Source: Gammaproteobacteria bacterium DTU037 (GTDB lineage Bacteria; Pseudomonadota; Gammaproteobacteria; Pseudomonadales; Pseudomonadaceae). Taken from it: a stretch of 64,000 bases of DNA. Positions 20,477-40,200 of the stretch are shown in pieces (positions within the stretch are counted from its first letter, which is position 1; each line of letters starts with the position of its first letter). The translations under genes and the position numbers were made by a program. The notes under the pieces are model-generated. The model was not told the DNA's origin, did not search any database, and saw only the letters and a list, made by a program, of their open reading frames with translations. The stretch lies in NCBI GenBank assembly GCA_001513025.1, contig LFRZ01000055.1, forward strand, positions 1 through 64,000, given 5' to 3'.

Positions 20477-21361
20477 ATGCAATTACGTTTGGTTTTGCTG
20501 GGCGGCGGTAACGCGCTAGGAAAGGCATTGGTACGTTTGGGTGCCGAAGATGATATTTCTTTTCTGGCCCCTAAACCTGAAAAAGGTGCTTGGGACGCGG
20601 CCAGCTTAACCACCCTCCTTGATGAAGTACGTCCTGATGTGGTGATCAATCTGGCGTATTACTATGACTGGTTTCAAGCTGGAGCAGTTGATCCGGCACA
20701 TTTTATACCGCAAGAGCGGGCAGTTGAGCGCTTAGCGCAGCTGTGCAAGCATCATGATTGTATTCTGTTACAACCGTCCAGCTATCGGGTATTTGATGGA
20801 GTGCGTGCTACCGCCTATAACGAAACCAGTGAGTGCAAGCCGCTCAGTCCACGAGGACAGGCTTTGCAGCGTATGGAACAGAGCGTACGAGCGTTATGTT
20901 CCAAGCATATTTTGCTGCGGGTTGGCTGGTTACTGGATGACAGTCCTGAAGGGATGTTGGGTCGTGTATTACGTCGCGCACAAGATCATGAACCGGTCGA
21001 GATGGCCGATGATCGGCGCGGCAATCCAACGCCGGTGGAAGATGCTGCGCGGGTTATGTTGGCGATATTAAAACAGCTCGATTGTTCGGCGCCGTTATGG
21101 GGTACTTACCATTATGGCGGGCAAGAAGCCGCGACGGCGTTAGCAGTTGCGCAAGCAATTTTAGCTGAAGCCCAGGCTTGGCGGCCGCAATTGAGTCAAG
21201 AGGTGGTGTCGCGAGCGCATGCGAGTTTTGCTGATGCGGTGATTGAGCCACAGCATGGTGTGCTAGACAGTCGTAAGATTACCCATACTTTCGGCATTAA
21301 GCCGCGGGCGTGGCGAACAGGTTTGGCAGATTTGCTCGACAGCTATTATCGCAATGTCTAA
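20477..21361 (+). CDS. RmlD-like sugar-nucleotide-binding reductase
   Basis: The 294-residue protein has the N-terminal Rossmann glycine motif (LLGGGNALGKALVRLG, residues 7-22) and the fold of dTDP-4-dehydrorhamnose reductase-like proteins, including PDVVINLAYYYDW and the NPTPVEDAARVML region. The usual YxxxK catalytic pair is not obvious: the segment after LSPRGQALQRMEQ has Gln where a Lys is expected. It may therefore be a divergent or regulatory member. It lies 39 bases after ssb and ends at a strong hairpin. No rhamnose-pathway genes are adjacent, so the substrate is unknown. Confidence 0.7.
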   Translation: MQLRLVLLGGGNALGKALVRLGAEDDISFLAPKPEKGAWDAASLTTLLDEVRPDVVINLAYYYDWFQAGAVDPAHFIPQERAVERLAQLCKHHDCILLQPSSYRVFDGVRATAYNETSECKPLSPRGQALQRMEQSVRALCSKHILLRVGWLLDDSPEGMLGRVLRRAQDHEPVEMADDRRGNPTPVEDAARVMLAILKQLDCSAPLWGTYHYGGQEAATALAVAQAILAEAQAWRPQLSQEVVSRAHASFADAVIEPQHGVLDSRKITHTFGIKPRAWRTGLADLLDSYYRNV

Positions 21362-21382
21362 GGTTTGTCTGATCGAGTCAGC

Positions 21383-21408
21383 GCTTGCGTTCCTATAGGA
21401 ACGCAAGC
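21383..21408 (+). terminator. Hairpin terminator after the RmlD-like gene
   Basis: GCTTGCGTTCC and GGAACGCAAGC form a perfect 11-pair stem around TATA. It begins 22 bases after the stop codon. A weak AT-rich stretch follows. Confidence 0.75.
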
Positions 21409-21446
21409 ACTTTAATAGTTTAGCGCAGGATGTTGCAGCACAAATA

Positions 21447-21473
21447 AAAACAGGCGCTTAATGCGCCTGTTTT
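21447..21473 (-). terminator. Terminator of ompW
   Basis: AAAACAGGCGC pairs with GCGCCTGTTTT around a five-base loop. It lies just after the ompW stop on the minus strand; the A run supplies the T tract in that direction, and the T run on the plus strand makes it bidirectional. Confidence 0.85.
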
Positions 21474-21490
21474 GTTTTCGCTGGTAAAAC

Positions 21491-22192
21491 TTAGAACTTG
21501 TAGCCAAGACCGACCATGTAAACCCATGGTTTAACATCAACATTTACTTTGGCGCGAGCCACATCAGCCACATTCACATAAGCATCTGTATCAATATCGA
21601 TATAACGAATTTGGCCGTTGATCAGCAAATTATCATTAAGCATATAGTCAGCACCAATCTGCGCTGCTAAGCCCCAAGAATTTTTAATATTTAAGCTTTT
21701 CAGTGGAAGGCCCGCTGCGTTATTACCAGCTTTAGCACCACTACTTACGCTCTCGTCAAAGAACCAAGTGTAGTTAATACCTGCACCAACATAGGGCTGG
21801 AAGGCTGATTTACTATCCAGTGGGTAGTACACAGCACTTAAGGTCGGTGGTAAGTGCTTAAAGCTACCAAGCTTACCGTCAACCGCGCCGGTGCCTTTAA
21901 TGTTCGCTTCATGCTTAAAAGGTGTTGCTGCTAGTAATTCAACACCCCAATGGTCAGTGACCATATAAGCAAAGTTTAAACCCAGTTGGGTGTCATTATT
22001 TAGAGTGGCTTTACCACCAAGATTTGCGCCTTCAAGAATACCTCGGTCACCTTTAACACCGGAAGTGCTTTCATGAGTTTGTACAGTCACAGCACCTGCA
22101 CGAACGATAATATCGCCGGCTTGGTGAGCTTGCACTGAAGGTGCAGCAATCGCTAATGCTAATAATGATGTGGCAAATAAAGTTGTGCGCAT
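21491..22192 (-). CDS. ompW: OmpW/OprG-family outer-membrane protein
   Basis: OmpW proteins are eight-stranded beta-barrels that let small hydrophobic molecules cross the outer membrane; the Pseudomonas member is OprG. A signal peptide (MRTTLFATSLLALAIAAPSVQA) precedes the mature barrel, which ends in Phe (YMVGLGYKF). The ATG at 22192 is preferred because GGAG lies seven bases upstream; the in-frame ATG at 22204 has no such site. A perfect ANR/DNR box lies upstream, fitting the oxygen-responsive control known for OmpW and OprG. It stands alone between two hairpins. Confidence 0.93.
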   Translation of the reverse strand: MRTTLFATSLLALAIAAPSVQAHQAGDIIVRAGAVTVQTHESTSGVKGDRGILEGANLGGKATLNNDTQLGLNFAYMVTDHWGVELLAATPFKHEANIKGTGAVDGKLGSFKHLPPTLSAVYYPLDSKSAFQPYVGAGINYTWFFDESVSSGAKAGNNAAGLPLKSLNIKNSWGLAAQIGADYMLNDNLLINGQIRYIDIDTDAYVNVADVARAKVNVDVKPWVYMVGLGYKF

Positions 22193-22263
22193 GATGTGCT
22201 CCATTTACAACTTATGGATTGTGTTGGTTGGTAACAATGTTACGTAATGAAGCGCGGCGCTAT

Positions 22264-22277
22264 TTGATGTGGATCAA
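22264..22277 (-). promoter_or_regulatory. ANR/DNR (FNR-type) box of ompW
   Basis: TTGATGTGGATCAA matches TTGATN4ATCAA at every defined position. Read toward ompW, a site at -41.5 puts the transcription start near 22229, with a -10-like TAACAT at the right distance and a leader of about 36 bases. This geometry is that of class II activation. The remaining 22205-22506 intergenic DNA also holds the fbp promoter region, in which no clear promoter was identified. Confidence 0.85.
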
Positions 22278-22506
22278 TAAATACACTGCTAGTTAATTAT
22301 GTGGCCGTTAAAGACGCTGTTTAGGCGGATAAGCGTGACATGGTTGGCTTTTTTAACTGATGCGATCACGGTCTAGCCGATTTAACTATTGTTTTTAATA
22401 CGATTTTAGAAGATCTGTAGGCCGCAAATGAAAAGCGTTGCAGCATTTGGGGTCACAAAGCGGTAAACTTGCGGGCATATTTTTTCCTACTCCGTTGGAG
22501 CGTTTT

Positions 22507-23526
22507 ATGTCACGCACGAGTTCACGCACGAGTTTAAGTCGTTTCCTTATTGAGCAAACACGTTCACATCAAACCCCTGCAGAGCTACGCTTTTTAATCG
22601 AAGTTGTGGCACGGGCTTGTAAAATGATCAACCATCAAGTGTCTAAAGGTGCTTTAGGTGGTGTGTTAGGCAGTATGGGCACTGAAAACGTACAGGGTGA
22701 AGTACAGAAGAAACTCGATGTGTTATCCAATGAAATTCTTCTTGAGGCCAATGAGTGGGGCGGCCACTTAGCTGGTATGGCGTCTGAAGAAATGGACAAC
22801 GCCTATCAAATCCCAGGCAAATACCCAAAAGGCTCCTACTTGCTGGTATTTGACCCATTGGATGGTTCGAGCAATATTGATGTCAACGTTTCTGTGGGCA
22901 CTATCTTCTCAGTATTGCGCTGCCCTGATCGTAATGGCGAAGAGGGTGACCTCGGCGAAGAAGCGTTCCTACAGCCTGGCACTGAACAAGTGGCTGCAGG
23001 TTATGCGATTTATGGTCCACAAACCATGTTGGTGTTGACCTTAGGTAATGGCGTAAAAGGTTTTACGTTAGACACTGAAATGGGTTCATTTATTATGACC
23101 CACGACGATATTCGCGTGCCTGAGCAGACTGCAGAATTTGCGATTAATATGTCCAATCAACGCCATTGGGAAGCGCCGGTGCAACGCTATGTCAGCGAAC
23201 TGTTGCAAGGTGCAGAAGGGCCGTTAGAGAAAGATTATAATATGCGTTGGGTGGCGGCAATGGTCGCTGATGTACACCGTATTTTGACGCGTGGTGGTGT
23301 CTTTATGTACCCGCGTGATAAACGTGAGCCGGAAAAGCCAGGTAAGTTACGTCTGATGTATGAAGCCAATCCGATGTCATTTATTATTGAGCAAGCCGGT
23401 GGTGTTTCGACCAATGGTTATCAGCGTATTATGGATATTCAACCCAGCTCATTGCATGAGCGCGTGGCAGTCTTTTTAGGCTCAAAGGAAGAAGTTGAGC
23501 GCATCACCGGCTATCATGCCGAATAA
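22507..23526 (+). CDS. fbp: Fructose-1,6-bisphosphatase, class I
   Basis: The enzyme converts fructose-1,6-bisphosphate to fructose-6-phosphate in gluconeogenesis. The ATG at 22507 gives 339 residues ([17 protein letters not shown]) and follows TTGGAG at good spacing; the in-frame ATG at 22438 would add a tail not typical of the family. The metal-binding motif [20 protein letters not shown] (about residues 116-135) is the class I hallmark. The acidic metal ligands ASEEMDN precede it. It is a single gene, divergent from ompW. Confidence 0.96.
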
Positions 23527-23546
23527 AAAGCTATAGCTGGCCGCTC

Positions 23547-23584
23547 CACCCTATAAAACTCAGTGCATCTGGTTTTGTAGGGTG
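23547..23584 (+). terminator. Hairpin after fbp
   Basis: CACCCTATAAAAC pairs with GTTTTGTAGGGTG (13 pairs, one wobble) around a 12-base loop, 20 bases after the fbp stop. No T tract follows. It insulates fbp from the nos promoter region that starts at once. Confidence 0.55.
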
Positions 23585-23597
23585 AGAGTGGCAAGTA

Positions 23598-23611
23598 TTG
23601 ATCTATATCAA
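23598..23611 (+). promoter_or_regulatory. ANR/DNR box 1 upstream of nosR
   Basis: TTGATCTATATCAA is a perfect match to TTGATN4ATCAA. An AT-rich -10-like TATTAT follows at 23641-23646. Its distance from the box is slightly longer than the class II optimum, so the exact start site is uncertain. Confidence 0.85.
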
Positions 23612-23725
23612 TATTTGATTAGTTAGTAGGTTTTAGCAGATATTATAAATGTAACCCCGCATGTCTGATGTCCTGTACGTTTGCGTGGTTATTCTGAATA
23701 ATCGTCTGTCCAGTAAAAAATAGGC

Positions 23726-23739
23726 ATGATTTTGATCAA
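23726..23739 (+). promoter_or_regulatory. ANR/DNR box 2 upstream of nosR
   Basis: ATGATTTTGATCAA differs from TTGATN4ATCAA only at the first base. It lies 128 bases downstream of box 1. If it acts at -41.5, transcription would begin near 23774, after the first possible nosR start (23743) and before the preferred start at 23800. It could also act as a repressing or modulating site for a promoter driven by box 1. Confidence 0.6.
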
Positions 23740-23799
23740 GGTATGTTTGCGCCCTTGCTTGCTAAGCTCGACATACTTATTAAGTATCAGGGCACTATC

Positions 23800-25992
23800 A
23801 TGCAGGCTAGTTATATATATTCACAACGGAGATGGTTAGCGAGCATCACTTGGCTAATGATCTTGCTGATACTGTGTTTTTATGGGCTCAGCTCGGCGCA
23901 GGCCGCCAACTTAACCGCGTTAGAAAAAGGGCGGATTGCTTTAACTTTCCCACAGTCGGGCACTATCACTGAACCCGAAGGTGAGTTTCAAATCAGGCAG
24001 ATTTTGTCGGGCGATGAACTGCTTGGCTACGCCTATCAAACGATCAACGTTGTTGATATCCCGGCCTACTCCGGCAAACCGATTAATTTGCAGGTACTCT
24101 TAGATCCGCAAGGCGTGATTCAAGATGCCTATGTTTTAGAGCACCATGAGCCTATTTTGCTGATTGGTATTCCTGAACAAAAACTGCATGATTTTGCGGC
24201 TAAATATGCCGGTATTAAAGTCGATCAGCGCGTGGTGATTGGCCGCTCTAAAGACGAGTCAGCCATCACAATTGATGCGGTCTCGGGTGCTACTGTGACG
24301 GTGATGGTGGTCAACGAAGCCATTATGCGTTCCGCTCACCAAGTGGCGGTATCCCTAGGCTTAGTCTCTGCTCACTCGCAAATTAAAAACAAGCCTGCCA
24401 TCGTCCTGATGGACCAATATCAGAAGGCCAGTTGGACCACGCTAACCGGTGATGGCTCTATTCGTCGCTTGTTGCTCAGTCGCGGCCAAGTGGACGATGC
24501 CTTTATTGGTAGCGAAGCCGAAGGGGTGGATGCGGCGAGTCCAGAGCAGCGTGATGATACCTTTATTGATTTGTATGTCGCCGAGCTGAACCCGCCAACT
24601 ATTGGTCGTAATCTACTGGGCGAGCGACAATATCAAGAGTTAATGAGTGAGCTGAAAGCTGACGAGCGCGCCATTGTCGTGCTGGGTAATGGTGAGTATT
24701 CGTTTAAAGGATCGGGCTATGTGCGTGGTGGTATTTTTGACCGCATTCAGTTGCGCCAATTTGGCGACGTTGTCAGCTTCCGCGATTTAGACTTTTATCG
24801 CTTAAGTGATGTGTATGCCGAAGGCATGCCGGACTTTAGTGAAATGGGCATCTTTATTATTCGCCCACAATACGCCTTTGATTCAGGCTCAGATTGGACT
24901 TTAGAGCTGTTGGTACGCCGTCAAACGGGTCCGGTTGACAGTATCTTTACCAGCTTTGAGTTAGCCTACCAAATGCCTGAGATGTACCTTGAACGCCCCC
25001 CGTTAACCGCCTCTGAGCAGGCGGCGATTGATGAAGCGAACCGTCCATTATGGCTCAATATCTGGTACCAGAAAGACTTTCAAATCATTGTCTTAGGTAT
25101 TGGCTTGGTTGCTCTGTTCGCGATTCTGTTCCTGCAGGATTATTTAGTTCGTTACCCTAAAGTGCTGCACCGCGTGCGTATGGGCTATCTGACCTTTACC
25201 GTGGTGTTTATTGGTTGGTATGCGCTGGGACAGCTGTCAATTGTTAACGTGCTGACCTTTGCTCATTCGATTATGAATGGCTTCAGTTGGGAGCTGTTTT
25301 TAAGTGACCCGATCATCTTTATTCTTTGGGGTGTGACGGCGGCTATTGTCTTGCTCTGGGGGCGTGGAGTGTTCTGCGGTTGGTTGTGCCCATTCGGTGC
25401 CTTGCAGGAGATCATCAATGAGGTTGCGCGCAAGATAAAGATCCCGCAGTACGATGTGCCTTTTGCTCTGCATGAGCGTTTGTGGGCAATCAAGTACATT
25501 ATTTTACTGATCCTCTTTGGCATCTCCTTGGAGTCCATGTCAGCGGCTGAGAAATATGCTGAAATTGAACCTTTTAAAACGGCAATTACATTGAAGTTTG
25601 ATCGTCAGTGGTGGTTCGTTCTCTATGCCGTTGTTTTGCTGGTGATCAATATCTTCACTCGCAAAGTCTATTGCCGCTACATTTGTCCGCTGGGTGCAGC
25701 CTTAGCAATTCCGACCAAATTACGTTTGTTTGATTGGCTCAAACGCCGCAAAGAATGTGGTACGCCGTGTCAGTTATGTGCAGTTGAGTGTGAGGTTCAA
25801 GCCATTCATCCCGATGGCACGATCAATGCCAACGAGTGCCACCACTGCCTTGATTGCCAAGTCACCTATTTTAATGAGGACCGTTGTCCTCCGTTAGTGG
25901 CGAAGAAAAAGCGTCGCGAACGTAATAAAGCAGCTCCGCAAATGCAAGAGCCGCACATTATTCCGGCCGTCCAGCTGGATACCCCGTCTTAA
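23800..25992 (+). CDS. nosR: NosR, membrane flavo-iron-sulfur regulator and electron donor for N2O reduction
   Basis: NosR passes electrons from the membrane to NosZ and is needed for nos expression. The ATG at 23800 gives 730 residues, near the P. stutzeri length, with AGGG seven bases upstream; the 23743 start is less likely. A signal or first helix (about 12-36) precedes a periplasmic flavin domain with the covalent-FMN motif SGATVT (162-167). Several transmembrane helices follow, with two cytoplasmic CxxxCP motifs (CGWLCPFGA, CRYICPLGA). A ferredoxin-like C-terminus has CGTPCQLCAVEC and CHHCLDC. It heads nosRZDFYL. Confidence 0.95.
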   Translation: MQASYIYSQRRWLASITWLMILLILCFYGLSSAQAANLTALEKGRIALTFPQSGTITEPEGEFQIRQILSGDELLGYAYQTINVVDIPAYSGKPINLQVLLDPQGVIQDAYVLEHHEPILLIGIPEQKLHDFAAKYAGIKVDQRVVIGRSKDESAITIDAVSGATVTVMVVNEAIMRSAHQVAVSLGLVSAHSQIKNKPAIVLMDQYQKASWTTLTGDGSIRRLLLSRGQVDDAFIGSEAEGVDAASPEQRDDTFIDLYVAELNPPTIGRNLLGERQYQELMSELKADERAIVVLGNGEYSFKGSGYVRGGIFDRIQLRQFGDVVSFRDLDFYRLSDVYAEGMPDFSEMGIFIIRPQYAFDSGSDWTLELLVRRQTGPVDSIFTSFELAYQMPEMYLERPPLTASEQAAIDEANRPLWLNIWYQKDFQIIVLGIGLVALFAILFLQDYLVRYPKVLHRVRMGYLTFTVVFIGWYALGQLSIVNVLTFAHSIMNGFSWELFLSDPIIFILWGVTAAIVLLWGRGVFCGWLCPFGALQEIINEVARKIKIPQYDVPFALHERLWAIKYIILLILFGISLESMSAAEKYAEIEPFKTAITLKFDRQWWFVLYAVVLLVINIFTRKVYCRYICPLGAALAIPTKLRLFDWLKRRKECGTPCQLCAVECEVQAIHPDGTINANECHHCLDCQVTYFNEDRCPPLVAKKKRRERNKAAPQMQEPHIIPAVQLDTPS

Positions 25993-26035
25993 TTCCGTCC
26001 AAATTAAGACACATTACCCAGGAGATGTATCTGTC

Positions 26036-27949
26036 ATGAGCGAAAAGAAAACAACAACTGAGATTGAAAAGGCAGGCTTAAGTCGGCGCGGCTTTCTTGG
26101 CGCCACTGCAGTCACTGGTGCAACCATAGTCGGTGCTACAGCCATCGGCTCTTCAGTTATGAGTCGTGAAACTTGGGCGGCCGCTGTTAAAGAAGCAAAA
26201 AACAAAGCCCATGTTGGTCCAGGTGAGTTGGATGATTACTACTGCTTTTTAAGTGGTGGTCACCAAGGTGAAGTGCGTGTGATGGGTTTACCCTCCATGC
26301 GCGAATTGATGCGTATTCCAGTATTTAATATGGATGGCGCAGTGGGTTGGGGTATTACCAACGAAAGTAAAGCGGTATTGGGTGAAAGCGCTAAATTTAT
26401 GAACGGCGACTGTCACCACCCACACATTTCTATGACTGATGGTAGTTACGATGGTAAATACCTGTTTATTAACGATAAAGCCAACACCCGTGTTGCGCGG
26501 ATTCGTTTAGATATCATGAAGTGCGATAAAATCACCACTATTCCTAACGTGCAATCGATCCACGGTTTACGCTTGCAGAAAGTGCCCTACACCAAGTATG
26601 TCTTCTGCAACGCAGAGTTCATCATTCCGCACCCAAACGATGGCACTAACATCGACAATCTCGATGCCGCGGAAAAGTACACCATGTATAACGCCATTGA
26701 TGCGGAAACCATGGAAGTAGCATGGCAGGTGATAGTTGATGGTAACCTTGATAACACTGATATGTGCTACACCGGTAAATATGCTGCAGCGACCTGCTAC
26801 AACTCAGAAGGTGCTTACGATATCGCTGGTATGATGCGCAATGAGCGTGACTGGGTCACCATCTTCAACATCCCGCGCATTGAAGAGGAAATCAAAGCTG
26901 GCCGCTTTATCACCCTCGGCGACTCAAAAGTGCCGGTGGTTGATGGCCGTAAGAAAGAAGGCAAAAACGCCCGTGTGACGCGCTATGTGCCAGTACCAAA
27001 AAACCCACACGGCTTAAATACTTCACCCGATGGTAAGTACTTTATTGCCAACGGTAAGCTGTCACCCACCTGCTCAATGATTGCCATTGATATGCTGGAT
27101 GATTTGTTTAATGACAAATTTGCTGATGAGCGTGACGTGATTGTTGGTGAGCCAGAGTTGGGTCTTGGTCCATTACACACGACTTTCGATGGTCGCGGTA
27201 ATGCTTACACCACACTGTTTATTGACAGCCAAGTGGTGAAGTGGGACATGGCAGAGGCAGTACGCTCTTATAAAGGCGAAAAAGTGAACTACATTAAGCA
27301 AAAGCTTGATGTGCACTACCAGCCTGGCCACAACCATGCCTCTTTAACTGAAACTAAAGATGCCGATGGCAAATGGCTGTTGGTATTAAGTAAGTTCTCT
27401 AAAGACCGTTTCTTACCCGTGGGTCCATTGCACCCAGAGAATGATCAGTTAATTGATATTTCTGGCGATGAAATGAAAATCGTGCATGATGGTCCATCCT
27501 ATGCAGAACCGCATGATGCGATTATGGCGCGTCGTGATCAGATCAAAACCAAGAAAGTTTGGGATCGTGATGACCCATACTTTGCTGCGACTGTAGCGCG
27601 CGCCAAAGAAGACGGAATTACCTTGGAAACGGATAACAAAGTCATCCGTGAGGGTAATAAAGTACGTGTGTACATGACTTCTATTGCTCCGTCTTACGGT
27701 ATGAGTGAGTTTACTGTTAACCAGGGTGACGAAGTCACAGTAACTATTACCAACTTGGATATGATTGAAGACGTGACCCATGGTTTCTGCATGGTTAACC
27801 ACGGTGTCAGTATGGAAATCAGCCCACAGCAAACGTCATCAGTAACCTTTACTGCGGATAAGCCTGGCGTGTTCTGGTACTACTGCAACTGGTTCTGCCA
27901 CGCACTGCACATGGAAATGGTTGGTCGTATGCTAGTTAAACCTGTGTAA
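26036..27949 (+). CDS. nosZ: Nitrous-oxide reductase (clade I, Tat-exported)
   Basis: NosZ reduces N2O to N2 in the periplasm. The 637-residue precursor has a Tat signal with SRRGFL at residues 16-21, marking the clade I type. The seven-bladed propeller carries CuZ histidines, including DCHHPH (His127, His128). The C-terminal cupredoxin domain has the CuA ligands in CNWFCHALHMEM (Cys617, Cys621, His625, Met628). All key ligands seen are intact, so the enzyme should be functional. AGGAG precedes the start. A hairpin after the gene may make nosZ transcript more abundant than the accessory genes. Confidence 0.98.
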   Translation: MSEKKTTTEIEKAGLSRRGFLGATAVTGATIVGATAIGSSVMSRETWAAAVKEAKNKAHVGPGELDDYYCFLSGGHQGEVRVMGLPSMRELMRIPVFNMDGAVGWGITNESKAVLGESAKFMNGDCHHPHISMTDGSYDGKYLFINDKANTRVARIRLDIMKCDKITTIPNVQSIHGLRLQKVPYTKYVFCNAEFIIPHPNDGTNIDNLDAAEKYTMYNAIDAETMEVAWQVIVDGNLDNTDMCYTGKYAAATCYNSEGAYDIAGMMRNERDWVTIFNIPRIEEEIKAGRFITLGDSKVPVVDGRKKEGKNARVTRYVPVPKNPHGLNTSPDGKYFIANGKLSPTCSMIAIDMLDDLFNDKFADERDVIVGEPELGLGPLHTTFDGRGNAYTTLFIDSQVVKWDMAEAVRSYKGEKVNYIKQKLDVHYQPGHNHASLTETKDADGKWLLVLSKFSKDRFLPVGPLHPENDQLIDISGDEMKIVHDGPSYAEPHDAIMARRDQIKTKKVWDRDDPYFAATVARAKEDGITLETDNKVIREGNKVRVYMTSIAPSYGMSEFTVNQGDEVTVTITNLDMIEDVTHGFCMVNHGVSMEISPQQTSSVTFTADKPGVFWYYCNWFCHALHMEMVGRMLVKPV

Positions 27950-27965
27950 AACAGGTAAAAGTGAT

Positions 27966-27995
27966 CGGCGCTGTTCTCGCAATGAGGCAGCGCCG
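27966..27995 (+). terminator. Hairpin between nosZ and nosD
   Basis: CGGCGCTG pairs with CAGCGCCG around a 14-base loop and is followed by GTTTTCT. It lies in the 103-base nosZ-nosD gap. It could terminate part of the transcript or protect the nosZ mRNA end. Confidence 0.65.
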
Positions 27996-28052
27996 GTTTT
28001 CTGGCACATTGGGGACTTATATGCAGACTCGTAGACAACAGGATGCGCGGCG

Positions 28053-29405
28053 ATGATTCGCGGAATTATTTACAGTGTTGCATTGCTTTTAGTGCTGCCT
28101 GTTTACGCAGCAGAAGAAGTGCCAGACGCATTGAAAGACGTGCAATTGCACGAGATTCAAGCCGCACCCGATGCGGACCTACAATTACAATCAATCACTC
28201 AACTGCCGTTAGAAAAAGTCTCTGAGCAGCATTGGCGTTTACCTGCGGGTGACTATATAGGGCACTTTGTGATTGATCAGCCGATGACCTTTGAGTGCGC
28301 AAAAGATGCTTATTTGCGTGGCGGAGGGCTAGGCAATGCACTGAATATTCGTGCAGCTGATGTCAGTGTTATCAATTGCGATATCAGTCAGTGGGGACAT
28401 AACCTCACGCAAATGGATGCGGGTATCTTTATTGAGCGCACAGCTAAAAATGCGCGTATCGAAAATAATTTTATCCATGGCCAAGGCTTTGGTGTGTGGG
28501 TTGATGCCACGCACAATGTCAGCATTATTAATAATAAAGTGCAGGGCGACTTAACCTTGCGCAATCAAGACCGTGGCAATGGGATTCATCTGTTTGCTGT
28601 GCGTTTTGCCAATATCAGCGGTAATGAAATCTGGGAAACACGCGACGGTATTTATATTGAAGCGGCCAATGACAATATTATCCATAACAATCACATGCGT
28701 GATTTACGTTATGGCGTGCACTATATGTTTTCCAATCGTAATGAAGTGACCGACAACAGCACCACCCGTACCCGCACTGGCTATGCCTTGATGCAAAGTC
28801 GCCAGCTGACGGTGACGGGTAACCGTTCTGATCATGATCAGAATTACGGTATTTTAATGAATTACATCACCTACTCAACACTTAAAGATAACTTTGTCAC
28901 TGCTGTACAGCCTGGCTCAGGTGATGGTGTACATATCAGTGGAGCCGAAGGAAAAGCGTTATTTATTTATAATTCACTGTTTAACACGCTGACCGGTAAT
29001 CACTTTGAGCACAGTGCCTTGGGTATTCATTTAACCGCAGGCTCAGAAGACAATCGTATTTATCATAACTCCTTCATTGGTAATCAGCAGCAGGTTAAGT
29101 ACGTCGCGATTCGTTATCAAGAGTGGTCATATGAAGGCAAGGGTAACTATTGGAGCGACTATTTAGGTTGGGATCGCAACAGTGATGGCATCGGCGATGT
29201 AGCGTACGAGCCTAATGATAATGTCGATCGCTTATTATGGATTTATCCACAAGTGCGTTTATTGATGCACAGTCCAAGTATCGAGTTATTACGTTTAGTG
29301 CAGCGGGCTTTTCCAGTGGTGAAATATCCCGGCGTACAAGACAGTTATCCGTTAATGCGTCCGGTGACTCGCGTTGCACCCCTTTCTTCAGGACTATCAG
29401 AATGA
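28053..29405 (+). CDS. nosD: NosD, periplasmic copper-centre maturation protein
   Basis: NosD works with the ABC transporter NosFY to supply sulfur for the tetranuclear CuZ centre of NosZ. The 450-residue protein has a Sec signal ([20 protein letters not shown]) and then right-handed beta-helix repeats of the CASH type, seen as recurring Asn-rich rungs such as [23 protein letters not shown] and LTGNHFEH. The C-terminal part contains the [12 protein letters not shown] motif found in NosD. Its stop overlaps the nosF start by four bases. Confidence 0.95.
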
Positions 29406-30313
29406 ATGCTGTAGAACTGCACAATGTGTATCAGCAGTACGGCTCTATGGCTGTACTCGACAATATTAGTTTGAGCCTTGCTGAAGGCGAAGTTTTAGGC
29501 CTCTTTGGTCACAATGGTGCGGGTAAAACCACCACTGTGCGCTTGATTCTAGGCTTGTTGCAAGCGACCACCGGAGAGGTCCGCGTGCTCGGTGGTACGC
29601 CGGGGGAGAGCGATATTCGTCGTCAAATCGGCTTTTTACCGGAGAACGTGACCTTTTATCCACAGTTGACTGGGCGTGAAACCTTGTTACATTTTGCCCG
29701 TTTAAAAGGCGCAGCTGTACAACAGGTGGATGATTTACTGGAGCAGGTGGGTCTCACCGCCGCCAGTTCGAAACGGGTCAAAACCTACTCGAAAGGAATG
29801 CGTCAACGTTTAGGTTTGGCTCAGGCTCTATTGGGGCGTCCGCGCTTACTGTTGCTGGATGAGCCTACCGTTGGTTTAGATCCGATTGCCACGCAAGAGC
29901 TGTATCAAGTGATAGGTCGCTTGCGTGATGAAGGCACCAGCATCGTGATCTGCTCGCACGTACTGCCGGGCGTTGAACCTTATATTGATCGCGCTGCGGT
30001 CTTAGCTTTAGGTCGATTAGAAGCGGTGGGCACCTTGCATGAGTTGCGCAGTCAAGCGCAGTTGCCCGTACGTATTCGTGCGGCAGGTTTAACTGTTGCA
30101 CAGCTGAGCGCACCCGAGGTGCAAGCGATTCGCCCCTTGCATGGTGTTTGGCACGAATTGCTGGTGGCACCTATGGATAAGTTGGCCACGGTGCAGCGTA
30201 TTTTACAGTTACAGCCGCAAGATTTAGAGGTGCAGCCCCCTTCTTTAGAAGACTTGTACTGTTATTACATGGAGCAAGCGGGCGCCTTGGGTGTTGCAGG
30301 AGTTCAGCAATGA
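29402..30313 (+). CDS. nosF: NosF, ABC transporter ATPase for NosZ maturation
   Basis: The 303-residue ATPase powers the NosY permease. Walker A is GHNGAGKTT (about 37-45), the signature [13 protein letters not shown] follows, and Walker B is [13 protein letters not shown]. The ATG at 29402 overlaps the nosD stop as ATGA; longer readings into nosD are rejected. The C-terminal part beyond the ATPase is typical of NosF, and the stop overlaps nosY by four bases. Confidence 0.95.
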
Positions 30314-31140
30314 ATCAGATTTGGAATATTGCCCGTAAAGAGTTCAGTGATGGCTTGCGTAATCGCTGGATGCTGGCCATTAGTGTGGTATTTGCCTTAT
30401 TGGCCGTGGGCATTGCTTGGTTTGGGGCCGCAGCGTCTGGGCAAATTGGCTTTACTTCAATTCCGGCAACCATTGCCAGTTTAGCCAGTTTGGCTACTTT
30501 CTTAATGCCGCTGATAGCTTTATTGCTGGCCTATGACGCGATTGTTGGCGAAGACGAAGGTGGCACCTTGATGCTGCTACTGACCTATCCCATCAGTCGT
30601 GGGCAAATCTTGCTGGGCAAATTTGTCGGGCATGGCATGATTTTAGGTTTAGCAACATTGATTGGTTTTGGGTGTGCCGCTGTGGCCATCGCCGTATTAG
30701 TCCCTGAAATTGAGCTGGCTATGCTGGTTTGGGCCTTTACCCGTTTTATTGTGTCTTCGACTTTACTGGGCTTAGTGTTTTTAGCCTTGGCTTATGTGCT
30801 GAGCAGTCGCGCCGCTGAAAAATCCAGCGCCGCCGGTCTTGCCTTAGGTTTGTGGTTTTTATTTGTGCTGGTGTTTGATTTGGCTTTGCTCGCGGTATTA
30901 GTGATCAGCGAAGGCACTTTCAGTCCCGAAGCATTGCCGTGGTTATTATTGCTCAATCCTGCGGATATTTACCGCTTGATCAATCTCGCCGGCTTTGAGT
31001 CCAGCTCAAGTACGGTGGGGGTGATGGCATTAGCCGGTGATTTGCCTGTCAGTAGCGCGGTGTTGTGGGGCTGCTTAGTGGCTTGGGTGGTTGCTTCATT
31101 GGCTTTAGCACATTGGATGTTTGCGCGGCGCACAGCCTGA
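30310..31140 (+). CDS. nosY: NosY, ABC transporter permease for NosZ maturation
   Basis: The 276-residue membrane protein has six hydrophobic segments and starts [21 protein letters not shown], the normal NosY start. The cytoplasmic loop [23 protein letters not shown] (cited by its ends) is the coupling region that contacts NosF. It is an ABC-2 type permease that, with NosF and NosD, exports a sulfur species for CuZ assembly. It overlaps nosF by four bases. Confidence 0.94.
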
Positions 31141-31165
31141 TTTGATACTAATTAAGAGGTTTAAA

Positions 31166-31858
31166 ATGATGAGAATGCAAAGTGCGATAATGCGTTGGTC
31201 TGTTGTGCTGTTTGCCAGTTTTTTGCTGACGGCCTGTAGTGATGACAAGCAGGCGACAGACGTCGTTGAAGTGTTAGGGCCTGTGGCTTTTGAGGCCGGC
31301 GATGAGTGTCATGTCTGTGGCATGATTATTACTGAACTGCCGGGGGCTAAAGCTCAGGCGGTGGAAAGCCGTAGCACAGCTGTACGCAAGTTTTGCTCAA
31401 CGCAAGATATGCTCAGCTGGTGGTTGCAGCCAGAGAATCAAAACCTTAAAGCTGAGCTGTATGTACACGATGTGGCGCAAACCCCTTGGGAGAACCCAAA
31501 AGATGAGCACCTGATTGATGCGCGTAGCGCATGGTATGTTGCCGGCTCCAGCTTACAAGGTGCGATGGGTCCATCTTTAGTCTCTTTTGGCAGTCGTGAA
31601 GCGGCAGAGTTGTTGGCTGCTTCTAAAGGCGGTCGTGTGCTGAGTTGGGACCAACTTGATTTAGCGGTACTGCAAGAGTTGGCCAGTGCCGGACATGAGC
31701 ATGCGGCGGCATACGGTGAGCATGTGATGGCCGAGCACGGTGTTACCGAAGTGGCAGATCAACAGAGTCAGCACGATGAGCACGCCGCTCCCGTTGCCGC
31801 ACCTGCTGCTGACGCCTCAGCTGAACATGATATACACAGTCAGCATCAGTCACATTAA
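31166..31858 (+). CDS. nosL: NosL, copper-binding outer-membrane lipoprotein, with His-rich tail
   Basis: NosL is a Cu(I) chaperone that feeds copper to NosZ. The start at 31166 gives a lipoprotein signal with lipobox LLTAC (Cys24). The copper site lies in ECHVCGMIITELPGAKAQ, with the conserved Cys-Gly-Met. At 230 residues it is longer than the roughly 190 usual for NosL. The extra part is a C-terminal tail with ten histidines in the last 55 residues (about 176-230), plus Ala/Pro/Glu. This could store or buffer copper or another metal; that role is inference. It ends the nos operon. Confidence 0.93.
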   Translation: MMRMQSAIMRWSVVLFASFLLTACSDDKQATDVVEVLGPVAFEAGDECHVCGMIITELPGAKAQAVESRSTAVRKFCSTQDMLSWWLQPENQNLKAELYVHDVAQTPWENPKDEHLIDARSAWYVAGSSLQGAMGPSLVSFGSREAAELLAASKGGRVLSWDQLDLAVLQELASAGHEHAAAYGEHVMAEHGVTEVADQQSQHDEHAAPVAAPAADASAEHDIHSQHQSH

Positions 31859-31868
31859 GCCCAGCATC

Positions 31869-31901
31869 CCACTCAATCGGCCTTCGCGGTCTATTGAGTG
31901 G
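31869..31901 (+). terminator. Hairpin at the end of the nos operon
   Basis: CCACTCAAT pairs with ATTGAGTGG around a 15-base loop, 10 bases after the nosL stop. No strong T tract follows. The remaining bases to 32016 show no recognised element. Confidence 0.6.
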
Positions 31902-32016
31902 GGTATCTAATCGCCTGTTTAGGCGCCGCTACATCTGCGAGTAACAGCCCAGCATTAAGTTGTGATCTACCGCTCGATCGTGACTTCAATATTTGTTATC
32001 TGCATAAGGCTCTACT

Positions 32017-32775
32017 ATGCCCAAATCAAGCATGCTTCCTCGTCCAGCTGCCACGCTTATTCTGAGTCGGGATACTGCCTGTGGGTTGCAAGTGTTTCTG
32101 ATGCAGCGTACGCAGCATGCGGTGTTTCTGCCAGGGTTTTTCGTGTTTCCCGGTGGCGCAGTGGATCCTATGGATGCCAGCGAGACAATGCTGGCGCTGT
32201 GCAAGGGCACTGATAACGCGAAAGGCAGCCCTATACTGAATATGGAGCAGGGTGGACTGGCCTATAAAATTGCTGCGATTCGTGAAAGCTTCGAGGAGGT
32301 CGGTTTGCTGCTGGCCGAGAATAGGTCTGGCGAGTATATAGAGATCGCAGAGCCGGGTGATGTTGAATATTATGCGGGCTTGCGTGAGCGGCTTAATGCG
32401 GGGCAACTGACTTTAGCTGATGTGTGTCGTCAACGCGATTTGAGCGCGGCAGTGGATAAGCTTGCCTTCTTTAGCCATTGGATTACGCCTGTTGGACTAC
32501 CGCGCCGTTACGATACGCGCTTTTTTGTTGCGGCCGCCCCGGAACGACAGACGGCCGTGCCGGATGGACAAGAAGCCATCGATCATATTTGGATTGCTCC
32601 TGCTGAAGCGCTAAAACGGGGCCGGCGCGGTGAGTTTCCGCTGTCACCGCCAACCATGCTGACATTGCGGGAGTTGGCTTCATTCGAGACGACCGCGGCG
32701 CTGATTAATTATGCGCGTCGTCCACGCCAAGATTGCCAATCGCAGAAAAGATGCGCTGCACAAGTTCAGCCGTAA
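32017..32775 (+). CDS. Nudix hydrolase with 3' end replaced by tnpB-derived sequence
   Basis: The 252-residue frame is a Nudix hydrolase of the NUDT7/NUDT19-like kind: FFVFPGGAVDP begins the box, an insertion follows, and IRESFEEVGLL supplies the metal-binding Glu residues. Such enzymes cleave nucleoside diphosphates linked to another moiety; the substrate here is unknown. From about residue 233 the DNA also encodes tnpB in another frame, so the last 18-20 residues (RPRQDCQSQKRCAAQVQP) are probably not original. The gene looks truncated at its C-terminus by a mobile-element junction near 32710. The Nudix core is intact. Confidence 0.8.
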   Translation: MPKSSMLPRPAATLILSRDTACGLQVFLMQRTQHAVFLPGFFVFPGGAVDPMDASETMLALCKGTDNAKGSPILNMEQGGLAYKIAAIRESFEEVGLLLAENRSGEYIEIAEPGDVEYYAGLRERLNAGQLTLADVCRQRDLSAAVDKLAFFSHWITPVGLPRRYDTRFFVAAAPERQTAVPDGQEAIDHIWIAPAEALKRGRRGEFPLSPPTMLTLRELASFETTAALINYARRPRQDCQSQKRCAAQVQP

Positions 32776-33123
32776 GCTGGTCAATCGCTGCGGTGAAATC
32801 TATGTCAGCAGTTTAAAGCTCGTTAAAACCAAGATGACCAAGTCAGCGTTGGATGCTGGCTGAGGTCAATTAAAAACAATATTGGACTATAAATGCACTC
32901 ACGCAGGCATTGTTTTAAGGAAGTCAACGAGGCATACACCATCCAAACCTGTAGCTGTTGTGGCGCATGGCCCAATAGTAGGTCGAAAGGGATCGCAGGA
33001 CTTGGAATAAGAGAATGGATATGCAATGGGTGTGGTGTCACCCACGACCGTGATGTCAATGCGGCTAAGAACATTCTCGCGGTTGGGCATGGCCGTCTAG
33101 CTGTAGGAATCCTTGCTCTTTAA
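32720..33123 (+). pseudogene. tnpB: Decayed TnpB (IS200/IS605-family) C-terminal fragment
   Basis: Only the last third of a TnpB/OrfB protein is present. The frame from 32720 reads VHAKIANRRKDALHKFSRKL and reaches ALDAG, where a TGA at 32861 replaces the expected Trp. It continues with GQLKTILDYKCTHAGI, then loses one base near 32909-32916. The next frame reads FKEVNEAYTIQTCSCCG and a zinc ribbon (CSCC and CNGC), then VTHDRDVNAAKNIL with the final RuvC-like Asp. TnpB is an RNA-guided nuclease of the IS605 group. This copy, with a stop, a frameshift and no N-terminus, cannot work. Confidence 0.88.
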
Positions 33124-33379
33124 GGCGTGGAAGATGTCAAGACAGCGATACAGCTTTACCCAGTTTGATCGGTAAGATGCTGAGGTGACTTGCGAGATAT
33201 TATAATGCGTAGCGATTGTCGGTTTTTCTCGCAGGGTACTGCGGCTCACTGTGTTGAGCCTCAGTGGCGCAAGCAATTCTGACCTTGCTGATAAGAATGA
33301 GGTTGAAGTCAAGTTCTAGGTCGCAGCGAGCGACAAATAGATCAATGCGATTGCCGCCGCTGCTCTTGGCTTTATTTAT
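33124..33379. other. Intergenic DNA with likely IS right end, otherwise unrecognised
   Basis: The first bases (about 33105-33142, GCTCTTTAAGGCGTGGAAGATGTCAAG) resemble the conserved right end of IS605/IS1341-type elements, where the guide RNA of TnpB normally ends. The rest, to the SYLF gene stop, shows no recognised gene. A 71-codon minus-strand frame at 33097-33312 has no family I recognise. It may be further mobile-element debris. Confidence 0.4.
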
Positions 33380-33940
33380 TTAGCGTTTGATATGAGAGAT
33401 TTTTGTGCCCTCAATGCTCACTCCAGCCATCAAACCTTGCTGGCTAAAGATAAATGCATAGGCATCATTTTTCAGCGAGGATGACGAGATATTTTTTGCT
33501 ACACCTTCGTCAACTACAACCACGGTCGGACCGACACCCACTTCCCAACCCTTGGTCTTTTCGATATAGCTCACCGCGTCATCGGTCATTAGAAATACAG
33601 CATAGCCATAAGTCTGCGCGCCGACCTGAACGCCCCATGAACCAGCCACTGAGTTGTAGTAGTCGATCACTTTAGAGCCTTTGAGTAAGACCCCCTCGCC
33701 GTAGCTGCCACCAAATACCAGCCCAGCCTTAATCACATTAGGGAAAACCAGAACGGCTTTGGCGCTCTGTGCCAGTGTTTTGGCAACAGGTTCGGCTTTA
33801 TAGAGTGTCTGCAAGGCCTGCAAAGAATCTCGATCTAAATCCTCGGCCGTTGCTGCACTGGCGACACTTATGCTGCCCATCGAAATCGCGGCGAGCGCCG
33901 CAACAGTGAATGCAAGAAATGTACTGCGTAATTTATTCAT
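33380..33940 (-). CDS. SYLF-domain (YSC84-like) periplasmic protein
   Basis: The 186-residue protein has a Sec signal (MNKLRSTFLAFTVAALAAIS, ending ASAAT) and a SYLF domain (residues about 35-186) with KAVLVFPNVIKAGLVFGGSYGEG at its start and the SQQGLMAGVSIEGTKI end block. SYLF domains bind phosphoinositides in eukaryotes. The bacterial role is unknown, though secreted members are common in proteobacteria. AAGGGA lies before the ATG. It is downstream of the tnpB remnant and convergent with it. Confidence 0.85.
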   Translation of the reverse strand: MNKLRSTFLAFTVAALAAISMGSISVASAATAEDLDRDSLQALQTLYKAEPVAKTLAQSAKAVLVFPNVIKAGLVFGGSYGEGVLLKGSKVIDYYNSVAGSWGVQVGAQTYGYAVFLMTDDAVSYIEKTKGWEVGVGPTVVVVDEGVAKNISSSSLKNDAYAFIFSQQGLMAGVSIEGTKISHIKR

Positions 33941-34238: not shown

Positions 34239-37200
34239 CTACCCGTTCAACACCACCTCGACAGTGTGGCTCTTATGGTCATCTAGCAAGGGGATCGCTT
34301 GGGTGACCTTGGCATCAGTGAGCTCAACCCCATCAAGGGTGATGGATTGCACTTGCCCTGAGGGTTCGCCGTCACAGCTGAAGGTGATGTGATACAGGGT
34401 CTCGCGATAACGGTAACGGACGCTGTAGGATTGCCAATTGGCGGGAATGCAGGGCGCGATCAATAAACGATCGCCTGCCAGGGTCAGCCCCAGCAGAGTT
34501 TCCAAGGCCAACTGATACATCCAACCGGCAGCGCCTGTGTACCATGACCAGCCACCGCGGCCGGTATGTGGCGCAGCGCCGTAGATATCGGCGCTCATCA
34601 CATAGGGCTCGACTCTGTAGTGCTGCATGCTGTCCGCTGTGCTGCCGTGATGGATAGGGTTAAGCATGCTAAACAGCTCCCAAGCACGCTCGCGGTCGCC
34701 TAATTTGGCAAATGCCATAGCGCTCCAGATCGCCGCATGGGTGTACTGGCCACCATTTTCACGTACGCCGGGCACATAGCCTTTGATATAGCCGGGCTCC
34801 AGTGCAGATTTATCGAAGGGTGGATCGAATAGTTGGATCAGCTGCGCATCGCGGCGTACCAAACGCTGATCAACCGCGGTCATGGCTTGCTTAGCCCTTT
34901 GCGGATCGCCAGCACCGGATAACACCGCCCAGCTTTGGCTAATGGAGTCGATCTGGCATTCATCGTTTTCCGACGAACCCAAGGGCGTGCCGTCATCGAA
35001 ATAGGCGCGACGATACCACGCACCATCCCAAGCATTGGCTTCAATATTGGCTTGCAACTGAGTGGCCTGTGCGCGGCACAGTTCGGCAAAGTCGGTATCG
35101 CTGCGGCCATCGGCTACATTGGCAAATGATTCTAGATTTTCATATAGAAACCAAGCCAACCAGACGCTTTCGCCTTTGCCACCACTGCCGACTAGATTCA
35201 TCCCATCATTCCAGTCGCCACCGCCCATTAGGGGTAAGTTGTGCTTGCCAAAGCGTAAGCCATATTTGATCGCACGTACGCAATGCTCATACAGGCTAGC
35301 GGTGTCGGCTGACTGTTGTGGTTGATCATAATAGGCTTCCTCCTCAGCATAGAGTTCACGTCCTTCGAGGAAGTGAATGGATTCGTCAAGAATGCCAATA
35401 TCGCCGGTAGCCAACACATAACGGCTGGTGACATAGGGCAGCCAGAGATAATCATCCGAAAAGTGGGTGCGTACCCCTTGTCCTTGCGGCGGATGCCACC
35501 AGTGTTGCACATCCCCTTGATGGAATTGGCGTCCGGCGCAACGGATGATTTGCTCGCGCGTCTGCCAAGGCTCTGCATGCAATAAGGCTAAGGTGTCTTG
35601 CAATTGATCGCGGAAACCATAGGCACCACCGGACTGATAATAGCCACTGCGGCCCCAGATACGTGATGACAGAGTTTGGTAGAGCAGCCAGCCATTAACC
35701 AGCACATCGAGGGCTGGATCTGGTGTTTGCACTTGCACTGCACCCAAGGTATGTCGCCAGTACTGGTGAACTGACTGCAACGCCTGCTGCGCACCGATTG
35801 GGTTGTCGAAACGCTGAAGCAAGTCTTGCGCTGCTTGGCTGGTACTCGCAGCGCCGAAGACAAAAACAATCTCGCGTGTTTCGCCATCCGCCAGTTCAAT
35901 CTGAGTTTGCAAAGCGGCGCAGGGGTCCAAGCCAGCACCGGTTTTGCCAGATAAATGCACCCGCTGTAAGGCGGCTGGATTGGCCAGAGAGCCATTGCGT
36001 CCAATAAATTCAGTGCGGCTGCCGCTTAAGGTCTGCCGCTGTGGGCCCTGTCCATCATGCTTAACTTGGGCGAAAACCACGCGGTTGGCGCATGCACGGC
36101 CATAGGCATTGCGTGCGAATAAGGCACCGCTGTGCGGGTCTTGCTCGGTAACGATATGCATAAGATTGGCATGGCGCCACTCGCCCAGCACCAGCTCCCA
36201 ATAGCCGGTCAAGGATAGACGCCGCTGGCGCCCTGACTGGTTGCGCAGTTTGACCACGACAAATTTCACTGGCGCGTCCATGGCCACGTAGGTGGTCAGT
36301 TCTGAGGCGATACCTGCTTGCTCGTGTTCAAAGATGCTGTAGCCAAAACCATGACGGCAAGTATAACCGGCTTGGCTGTGCTGGCTGGCGGTGGCGGGTA
36401 AGGGAGTTGGCGACCAGACGGCACCGCTGTCTTCGTCACGGATATAGAGGGCTTCGCCACTGCTGTCGCTTAAGGGATCATTGTGCCAAGTGGTCAGGCG
36501 GAACTCATGGGCATTCTCCACCCAGGTATAAGCGCCGCCGCTTTCACTGACCACAGTACCTATATGTGGGCTGGCGATGACATTCACCCAAGGTGCTGGC
36601 GTGTGCTGCCCTGGTGCTAGAGTGATGATATATTCACGCCCATCGGGGCTAAAGCCGCCCAAACCATTGGAGAAAATGCGCTCAGCTATGGCTAAGGGCT
36701 GGCTCGGGCTTGCATGGCTATCGACGGTTAAACTAGGTGAAAGAGGCTTGGGTAAGAGCTCGGCTAGGACAAAACGATCCATCTGTTCCAGCAGCGTCTC
36801 GTTGTTATCTTGCAGCACAATATGTGCTACGGTTTGGAATAAAACGAGTTCCTCTTCCGACAACTCATCCACACGGCGTAAGAATACACCGCCCGGCGCA
36901 TCGATGACCCGCGTTTCGGGGCCGGCATTGATCAACGCGATGATTTGATCCTGCAGCACTGTGCGATAGCCGGAGAAGTCTTTATTGAGGATCACCAAGT
37001 CAACGCGTAGGCCCTTTATTTGCCAATAGGCGTGAGCTTCCAGTACTTGCTTGACCAGATCAATGCGCTTGAGGTTGCCAATGTGCAGCAGCACTATGGG
37101 TAAATCACCAGAGACGGCAAAGCGCCATAGCCCAGCTTGGCCCAGCTGATTACGGGCAATTACGCTAGGTGCGGCACGACGTAAGCCGCTTGCGTAAATC

Positions 37201-40200
37201 ACTGAGCTGGCGAGACGATCATAGACTTGCGCATCGGCTTCGCTGGCATTGATCTGGCGCAGCACTTGTTGACTGTCAAACCAAGCCATTTCAAAAGCGC
37301 GTTCCACCAAGTGGCGGTCGGTGCTTTTTTCAATCAGGGCTAAGGCCGCTTCACGGCTGTCTGCGGCACCTGACACAATTTGGATGGTCGCTGATTCATC
37401 GGGTGCCAAGGTGATGGTGCGACGTATAGCTACGATAGGATCCAGCACTGAACCGGCTGTATTGGATAATTCTCTGGATACAGTAGGACTGCTTTGCAGA
37501 GCCAAAGGATTGGCTGGGGTGCGTCCGCGTCCGATAAATAAACTGCGATCGGTTTCATAGGATGAGGCGCTGGCATTGGCGTCCGGTGTGGCTAATACAT
37601 GGAACACCCAAGGCACTTGCTCCCCAGGTGTGCGCTGGCGCCTGGTGCAGAGAATGGCCTCAAGTTCAGGTAAAATTTCGGTTTGCACAAAAAGATTGCT
37701 AAAAGCGCGGTGGGCTAGATCACTGTTCTGTGGCGCTAGCACCACTTCCGCGTAACTGCTGACCTCAATCTGTCGCGTACGCGAGGATAGGTTGGTCAGG
37801 GTGACGCGGCGGATTTCAAGATCCTCTTCCGGCGAAACAGTGATCTCAGTATGGGTCTCTATGGCCTCGTCACGGCGTCGATATTCTGCGCGACCTTGGA
37901 CAAAAATCGCCTCGTAATACTCCGCTTTGCGTTTTGTTGGTTGATAGGCGCTGGACCAGTAGCGGCCCGTGTCGATATCACGCAGATAAATAAAGGTGCC
38001 ACGATCATCGCAGGTGGCATCTTCACGCCAACGGGTGATGGCTAAATCACGCCAGCGGCTATAGCCACCACCGGTATGGGTGGCCATCAGATGGTAAGTG
38101 CCGTTGGATAATAAGTGGACTTCAGGTATTGGCGTATCCAGGTCGCTGTAGACACGCATGGTGGCGCCAAGGTCTTCTAGTGGCGGACGTGCAGCGGCCA
38201 CTTGTTCGGCAGCATGGGGTTGGATGGTGGCCAGCTGCTTGGGAATGCGTTCCTGCAAGAGCAGTTGTGTCGACTGCACCAAAGGATCCGACATAAAGCG
38301 CCGTTGCATGGGCTGGCCCAGCAAGGCGTGCCCATAGGCCAGCAAGCTCATGCCTTGGTGGTGGGCCATAAAGGCACCAACAATGGCGTGAGTCTCACCG
38401 CGGCGCGTGCGTGAGGGGGTGTAATCAATGGCTTCATAGAAACCGTAACGCCCGAGAAACCCTTTTTTGGCCATGCTCTGTAAATTACGGCAGGCTTCCA
38501 GTGGCATGACGGTTAAGGCTAAAGCGCTGGCATAGGGTGCAATCACCAGATCGTCGCCCAGACCTCGCTTCAAACCCAGCCCCGGCACGCCAAAGGCTTG
38601 ATATTGATAGACTTTATGCGTATCGAACAGGTTATAACAGGACTCAGAAATACCCCAAGGCACCTCACGCTGGCGGCCGTATTCGATTTGACGTAACACC
38701 GCGACCTTACAGGCTTGGTCTAATAGGGTGTTGGGGTAACCCTGCATAAAGAGTTGTGGCATCAGGTACTCAAACATCGAGCCACTCCAAGAGACTAAAG
38801 TGACGTCGCCACCGTGACTGGTCAGCAGGCGGCCAAGGGAAAACCAATGTTTTTGCGGCACTTGCCCTTGAGCGATCAAAAGGAAACTGGCTAAACGCGC
38901 TTCCGAGGCTAAAAGGTCGTAGTGGGATGGGTCGCGACGTCGTTTGTCCACGTCATAACCAATGGCGAGGAGGCTGCAGGCATTATCGTACAGGAAGGAA
39001 AAATCCATAACGGCCAGTTCGCGGCATCGGGCGATTAAATGATCAATCTCTTTCAGTCTGGCCCTTGCCGCGTTCCCCTTGTCTTCTTGGGCGAGGCTGC
39101 GCAGGGTTGGCATGCTATCGAAAGCTTTAAAGTCAGCGGTCATACTGTGCAAATCTTCGCGCAGCTCACACACTTGTTTAGTAAAGCTGCGTACCCAATA
39201 TGCCAGCTCAGCCTCAACGTCGGCCGGTAACAGAGCGGGTAAGCCGGCGCTGATATGTTGCAGTGTATCCAGCGCCGTATCGGCGGCTAGCAGCGTCTGT
39301 GGCTCACCCTCTTGCAGAATCAGCTTGAGGCTGTCCTTGAGGAATTTAATCTTATCGGTCAACTCGGGGTTGCTGCTTGGCACCTGTTCGGCGAGCAGAT
39401 ATAGGGTGTCTTGTAACCCTTGAAAGGCTTTAGCGGGTAAGAGCGGGGCGTCTTTGAGTTCAGCAAGCCCGACTTCTAAGGTCAGTAGGCTGCCGACCAA
39501 GTTGCCACTGTCGACCGCTGAAACATAGCGCGGTAGTAGAGGTTGTAAGCTGCGCGTGTCATACCAATTGTAGAGGTGACCTCGATAGCGCTCTAGTTTT
39601 TCCATGGTGCTGAGGCTGTGGTTGAGACGCTGCAGGCATTCGCCGACGCACAGGTAACCAAAATCATAGGCGCTGAGTTCAGCCAGCAAGGCCATGCCCA
39701 TATTCGTCGGTGAGGTGCGTGTGGCTATGACTGTCTCTGGATACACTTGGATATTATCCGGTGCGAGCCAGTTGTCCAAGGGCGCAACATAGTCGTTAAA
39801 AAATCGCCAAGTGCGTCGCGCTGAAGTGCGTAAAAACAGCTGTTGTTGCTCGGATAAGTCTGAGGCTGCGGCAGTAAAAGGGGTGCTGATCCACCAAGCA
39901 ACAAGGGGGGACAGCAGCCAGAGCAGTAAAGTGGGCACCCAATACAGCCACTCGGCGGGACGCAGTTGCCATAATGCTGTGGCTAATAACAGGGCTACAA
40001 CAGGCGCAACCCACATCTCAGCAAAAAAACCAGCCCATGTTTTACGCGCATTACGTCGCGCATAGGTGGGTAATTGCCACAGCAGTAGACCGCGGCGGGT
40101 CAAACACATGCGCAGACCTGAACGCAAGATTGCATCAAGGCAGATTAAAGCCTCGTAAGGCAGCATCACCCAAGAGAGCAGCGCCATCAGTAGCGGGCGA

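Follow-up and report, generated by a model that had tools for sequence, protein, structure and literature searches.

Two FNR-type boxes at a fixed spacing precede nosR in Denitrificimonas: a predicted class II promoter with a candidate accessory site

Whether a denitrifier gives off the greenhouse gas N2O or uses it up depends on the expression of nosRZ. In a member of the genus Denitrificimonas (Pseudomonadaceae), the 273 bp gap between fbp and nosR holds two FNR-type dyads, which raises the question of which of them serves the nosR promoter and what the other one does. The window analyzed here, that is, the whole stretch of 64,000 nucleotides, carries both (Table 1). A sequence-only reading had pointed to a perfect TTGATN4ATCAA at 23598 and to a second site with one mismatch at 23726, and both were found where it had placed them. 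The name fbp is presumed from the sequence of the gene, and those of the nosRZDFYL operon follow our own reading of the open reading frames (ORFs).

Table 1. Features of the fbp-nosR region, in coordinates of the window.
Feature	Position	Strand	Remarks
Third FNR-type box, TTGATGTGGATCAA	22264-22277		Between ompW (-) and fbp (+); perfect in the window
fbp (fructose-1,6-bisphosphatase-like)	22438-23526	+	Upstream neighbour; same order in 6/6 genus loci
Hairpin at fbp end	23536-23596	+	No T tail here; stops just before box 1
Box 1, distal ANR/DNR-type site, TTGATCTATATCAA	23598-23611	.	Perfect TTGATN4ATCAA
Spacer of fixed length	23612-23725	.	114 or 112 bp; sequence not conserved
Box 2, proximal ANR/DNR-type site, ATGATTTTGATCAA	23726-23739	.	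One mismatch (first base)
Predicted extended -10, TGCTAAGCT	23760-23768 (hexamer 23763-23768)	+	6/6 genus loci
Predicted transcription start	23775 (+/- few bases)	+	Placed 7 bases past the -10 hexamer
nosR	23800-25992	+	730 aa; ATG 23800; first gene of nosRZDFYL

In 20,000 dinucleotide-preserving shuffles of the gap, a perfect site arose in 9 and a site deviating from the pattern by no more than one base in 273, while none gave a perfect site together with a second one; the box pair therefore exceeds chance. Sites with up to two mismatches number 60 in the whole window against 30.8 expected, and the whole genome holds 16 distinct perfect sites against 0 for a reversed-pattern control. The genome also encodes cognate regulators. 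A search for Crp-type HTH domains returned six matches. ANR carries N-terminal cysteines in the arrangement of ANR/FNR, and its structural match is the FNR structure 5cvr (E 4.2e-77); DNR matches 3dkw (E 5.5e-87), and a second DNR-like protein matches the same structure (E 4.8e-48); a fourth Crp-type protein is presumably Vfr/CRP-like. Cytochrome d1-type genes, which we take to be nirS and its relatives, are present along with a gene that we read as norB-like, whose contig carries a perfect box (C90:1806). With dyads beyond chance, conservation at orthologous promoters and cognate regulators in the genome, the two boxes are real and, as judged by their dyad pattern, predicted binding sites of the ANR/DNR (FNR) type. 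ANR/DNR-type control of nosR, as proposed earlier, is likewise supported by the presence of both sites in all six genus loci and by the encoded ANR and DNR.

These six loci represent half of the 12 genus genomes, namely those in which nosR is present: the window's own and those of loci L001, L002, L003, L004 and L088. The nosR gene is 88-91% identical to orthologues in Denitrificimonas caeni and close MAGs. In an alignment of the six loci, the most prominent features are the two dyads, the -10 element and the start region. Between pairs of loci, identity averages 0.46 from fbp to box 1, 0.49 in the spacer, 0.85 in box 2, 0.51 from box 2 to the -10, 0.91 over positions 23759-23768 and 0.66 in the leader. 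For box 1 it is 0.76, as against a mean of 0.46 and a maximum of 0.61 in 14-base windows of the spacer. An ATGCAGG start at 23800 is kept in all six loci, whereas the five loci besides the window lack the ATG of 23743, and conservation supports the former as the predicted nosR start. The sequence-only reading had made the same choice on the ground that box 2 overlaps the ATG at 23743; the choice stands, but its reason does not, as the box ends at 23739, 3 bases before that codon (23743-23745).

Box 2, the less perfect site, sits at distances that identify its place as the usual one of a class II activator site, and Pseudomonadaceae repeatedly have a box at this place before nosR. It shows the class II arrangement of a -10 at about 22-23 bp and no consensus -35: the predicted hexamer lies 23 bp downstream in 6/6 Denitrificimonas loci, reads TAAGCT (once TATGCT) and is preceded by TG. 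A scan for consensus sigma-70 promoters found none at 23400-23900. A -10 equal in quality to TAAGCT turns up at gaps of 22-24 in approximately 22% of random sequences, so the element is weak alone and its case rests on conservation, not strength. Relative to the predicted start, box 2 is centered (23732.5) at about -42.5 and box 1 (23604.5) at about -170.5. Passages of one report place 19 of 23 promoters activated by Escherichia coli FNR at -41.5 +/- 4 (PMC3688515), a class II range that the position of box 2 fits, given the predicted start. A degenerate -10 ending in GCT also occurs at the ANR-dependent proximal promoter katAp2 of Pseudomonas aeruginosa, which, as described in parts of another report, has an ANR box over the -35 and the -10 CACGCT (PMC4974557). 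That promoter, however, has a single ANR box and is accompanied by a second promoter controlled by OxyR (PMC4974557), whereas nosR of Denitrificimonas has two boxes. The extended -10 is the sole promoter element conserved in the genus and lies downstream of both boxes, which speaks against the earlier view that the boxes bracket the nosR promoter.

A wider comparison covered the upstream regions of 83 nosR loci, comprising 59 of the 62 loci of a first set, 22 of the 30 of a second, the window and L115; three loci with no upstream region (L051, L056, L062) and eight repeats of loci already included were omitted, and L019 and L092, both among the 83, are the same contig. At least one box was found in 64 loci, and 19 had none by the scan rule; the proximal-box layout is common, not universal, among the loci compared. 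Removal of the duplicate L092 and of L057, which has a lone site at -138, left 62 loci for the -10 analysis. When gaps of 19-27 bp downstream of the proximal box were searched, the best -10-like hexamer fell at 22 or 23 bp in 44 of these 62; in most Pseudomonadaceae it is TACCAT or TACTAT. Counted from the ATG, the proximal box of most Pseudomonadaceae loci begins at -71 to -82, and that of Denitrificimonas at -73 or -74. All six Denitrificimonas loci have A as its first base; among the remaining 56 loci this base is T in 51 and C in 5. The family's nosR promoters of the single-box class II type (DNR/ANR; DnrD, FNR-type) share with Denitrificimonas a box some 75 bp ahead of the ATG, a -10 at 22-23 bp downstream and the regulators ANR and DNR, but they do not have the second box that Denitrificimonas carries 126-128 bp upstream at a fixed spacing. 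Rather than being a downstream element of a box-1 promoter, box 2 holds the class II activator position of the conserved promoter and matches the one proximal box seen at other nosR genes.

Within the genus, the paired pattern occurs at nosR in precisely those six genomes that carry the gene. Across 398 family genomes the paired pattern (gap 108-118) occurs in 31, comprising the six Denitrificimonas nosR sites and 25 other genomes in which, by eye, it lies at no listed nosR; in eight of these 25 it is on the nosR contig, also by eye, approximately 18-25 kb off. A family-wide two-box layout was rejected, since among the 398 genomes it lies at a listed nosR in Denitrificimonas only. Elsewhere among the 83 loci, a long-range distal box was seen once, in Neptunomonas qingdaonensis (L038), at 140 bp. 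Stutzerimonas-like loci also have two FNR-type sites before nosR, but these are 38-40 bp apart (16 of 83 loci) rather than 126-128 bp, and the upstream copy has a weaker second half. The titles, abstract openings and passages covered here, drawn largely from papers outside subscription, report no distal second DNR/ANR site of nosR and give no account of the Denitrificimonas nos promoter.

Box 1 is present in all six nosR-bearing genomes and varies in sequence. It reads TTGATCTGTGTCAG in L001 and L088, TTGATCTGTATCAG in L004, TTGACTTGGGTCAA in L003 and, in degenerate form, TTGATTTAAGACAG in L002, and its second half is imperfect (ending in G) in four of the six loci. The center-to-center distance between the boxes is 128, 126, 128, 128, 126 and 126 bp in the window, L001, L002, L003, L004 and L088, respectively, while the distance from the fbp stop to box 1 in the same order is 71, 80, 63, 69, 73 and 68 bp. 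With a helical repeat of 10.5 bp, the two distances amount to 12.0 turns (126 bp) and 12.2 turns (128 bp). The spacer sequence is not conserved, but its pairwise identities of 0.32-0.55 (0.82 for the L001/L004 pair) still exceed the 0.27 expected for unrelated DNA, a point against the argument from fixed spacing. Control gaps vary by 66 bp before ompW, by 20 bp between nosZ and nosD (103-123 bp, five genomes) and by 11 bp between ompW and fbp (224-235 bp, six genomes). The nosR-nosZ gap is constant too (43 bp in the four genomes measured), which counts against the argument from fixed box spacing; that argument is also affected by the alignment tool, which favours few gaps. In addition, a single indel in the tree probably accounts for the two spacing values, so that independent observations are few.

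Several elements that could lie in the spacer were considered. A structured RNA leader as the explanation of its fixed length was rejected (alifold gave an energy of 0.0, with z 0.25 relative to shuffled columns); no Rfam family was found in 21000-33500 and no tRNA or tmRNA in the window. An IHF-bent loop was rejected because there is no conserved IHF site between the boxes: IHF-like matches, defined as differing from an IHF consensus at one base at most, occur in only two of the six loci, and that of the window partly overlaps box 1. A promoter located between the boxes was rejected for lack of a conserved -10, and so was one served by box 1 in the class II manner, as a good hexamer about 22-24 bp after box 1 occurs in just one of the six genus loci.

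The reading we favour, with a probability of roughly 0.6, is that box 2 serves a class II nosR promoter and that box 1 is a genus-specific accessory site that modulates this promoter instead of having its own. Under such a scheme, transcription of nosR would begin at about 23775 and depend on an activator, the promoter having no consensus -35. ANR (low oxygen) and/or DNR (nitric oxide) would bind box 2 and activate RNA polymerase in class II fashion, as at other nosR genes. Box 1, some 12 helical turns further up (-168.5 or -170.5) and on the same DNA face, would be bound by a second dimer, which may modulate the box-2 promoter, perhaps by offsetting the weakened first half of box 2 through contact or DNA bending. 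FNR-type sites in a distal position are able to raise or to lower expression, and box 1 might do either; the sequence-only reading had suggested that tandem boxes could produce graded activation or switch-off. FNR-type sites at about -170 fall outside the usual class I range, which counts against this accessory role. A more specific arrangement, for which we have only tentative confidence, is a helically phased long-range pair in which ANR/DNR dimers at both boxes cooperate by bending or looping. The weak class II site would then fire only with both boxes filled, producing a steeper or two-signal O2/NO gate, a layout unseen in the compared nosR promoters outside Denitrificimonas.

Box 1 might instead drive a distal promoter, giving nosR two ANR/DNR-dependent starts and a distal leader of roughly 150 bases. 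Its position just past the fbp hairpin and upstream of all else would suit such a promoter, L002 has TATTCT at a gap of 24, and two nosR starts are described in Bradyrhizobium, though in the passages available they arise from one box (PMC5582078). The scarcity of a good -10 at class II distance (one of the six loci) and the lack of conservation after box 1 make this rather unlikely. Another view is modeled on E. coli yfiD, which combines a class II FNR site at -40.5 with a distal site for the same activator at -93.5. There, according to parts of one report, FNR bound at -93.5 down-regulates, and deletion of the upstream site raises fully anaerobic activity (PMC10208419). By analogy, box 1 could damp the promoter when the regulator is abundant, with nosR peaking at low, non-zero oxygen, and the distal site is indeed the better match while the proximal one is weakened. 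The yfiD sites, for which the down-regulation was measured (PMC10208419), are about 53 bp apart as opposed to 126-128 bp, however; we consider this version unlikely.

Somewhat less probable still is that box 1 has no effect on nosR, being a vestige or belonging to another function such as the termination of fbp or an antisense RNA. It adjoins the 3' end of fbp, and its second half is often imperfect, but its conservation in 6/6 loci at a fixed distance from box 2, with a distance to fbp that varies from 63 to 80 bp, speaks against this view. The model of the sequence-only reading, in which the promoter is flanked by the two boxes and the second one acts downstream of it, for example as a repressor site, can appeal to the existence of both boxes and to an AT-rich TATTAT after box 1 at 23641 in the window. 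With no conserved promoter between the boxes, and with box 2 at the class II position that is conserved among nosR promoters, it is very improbable.

The two-box layout of nosR is an ordinary kind of switch in an unusual but reproducible arrangement. Promoter layout could help to explain why species differ in N2O release, provided that the distal box governs the oxygen or nitric oxide threshold of nosR. The natural variants, with 126 or 128 bp and a perfect or degenerate box 1, constitute a ready test set for spacing rules.

Other features of the region merit description. The 75 bases before box 1 fold at -39.7 kcal/mol, and a hairpin is predicted there in 6/6 genus loci; its sequence differs between genus genomes, and in L003 the stem comprises 27 bp with no mismatch. 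The true start of fbp may be downstream of 22438. In the nosR leader (alifold z -3.43), an inverted repeat ATACTTATTAAGTAT at 23773-23787 spans the predicted nosR start. It reads GTACTTTTTAAGTAC in L002 and L003, both arms being altered together, is degenerate in L001, L004 and L088, and could be a hairpin or an operator. One complete genus genome has a second nosR (L115; G057:C1:729254-731401), 72% identical, with no box of at most one mismatch in the 350 bp upstream. The third FNR-type box is conserved in 6/6 genus loci with small variations; it is located some 60 bp ahead of ompW, on whose strand we read a TAACAT 21 bp downstream of the box. We take oprG to belong to the OmpW family. In parts of one report, oprG is placed within the core Anr regulon of Pseudomonas (PMC6588701). 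Elsewhere, a perfect box at 1501-1514 of L066 (G000:C55:24402) lies directly after dnr and before a small zinc-ribbon-like ORF, and the minus strand of the window carries a very long ORF of 2867 aa at 34239-42842.
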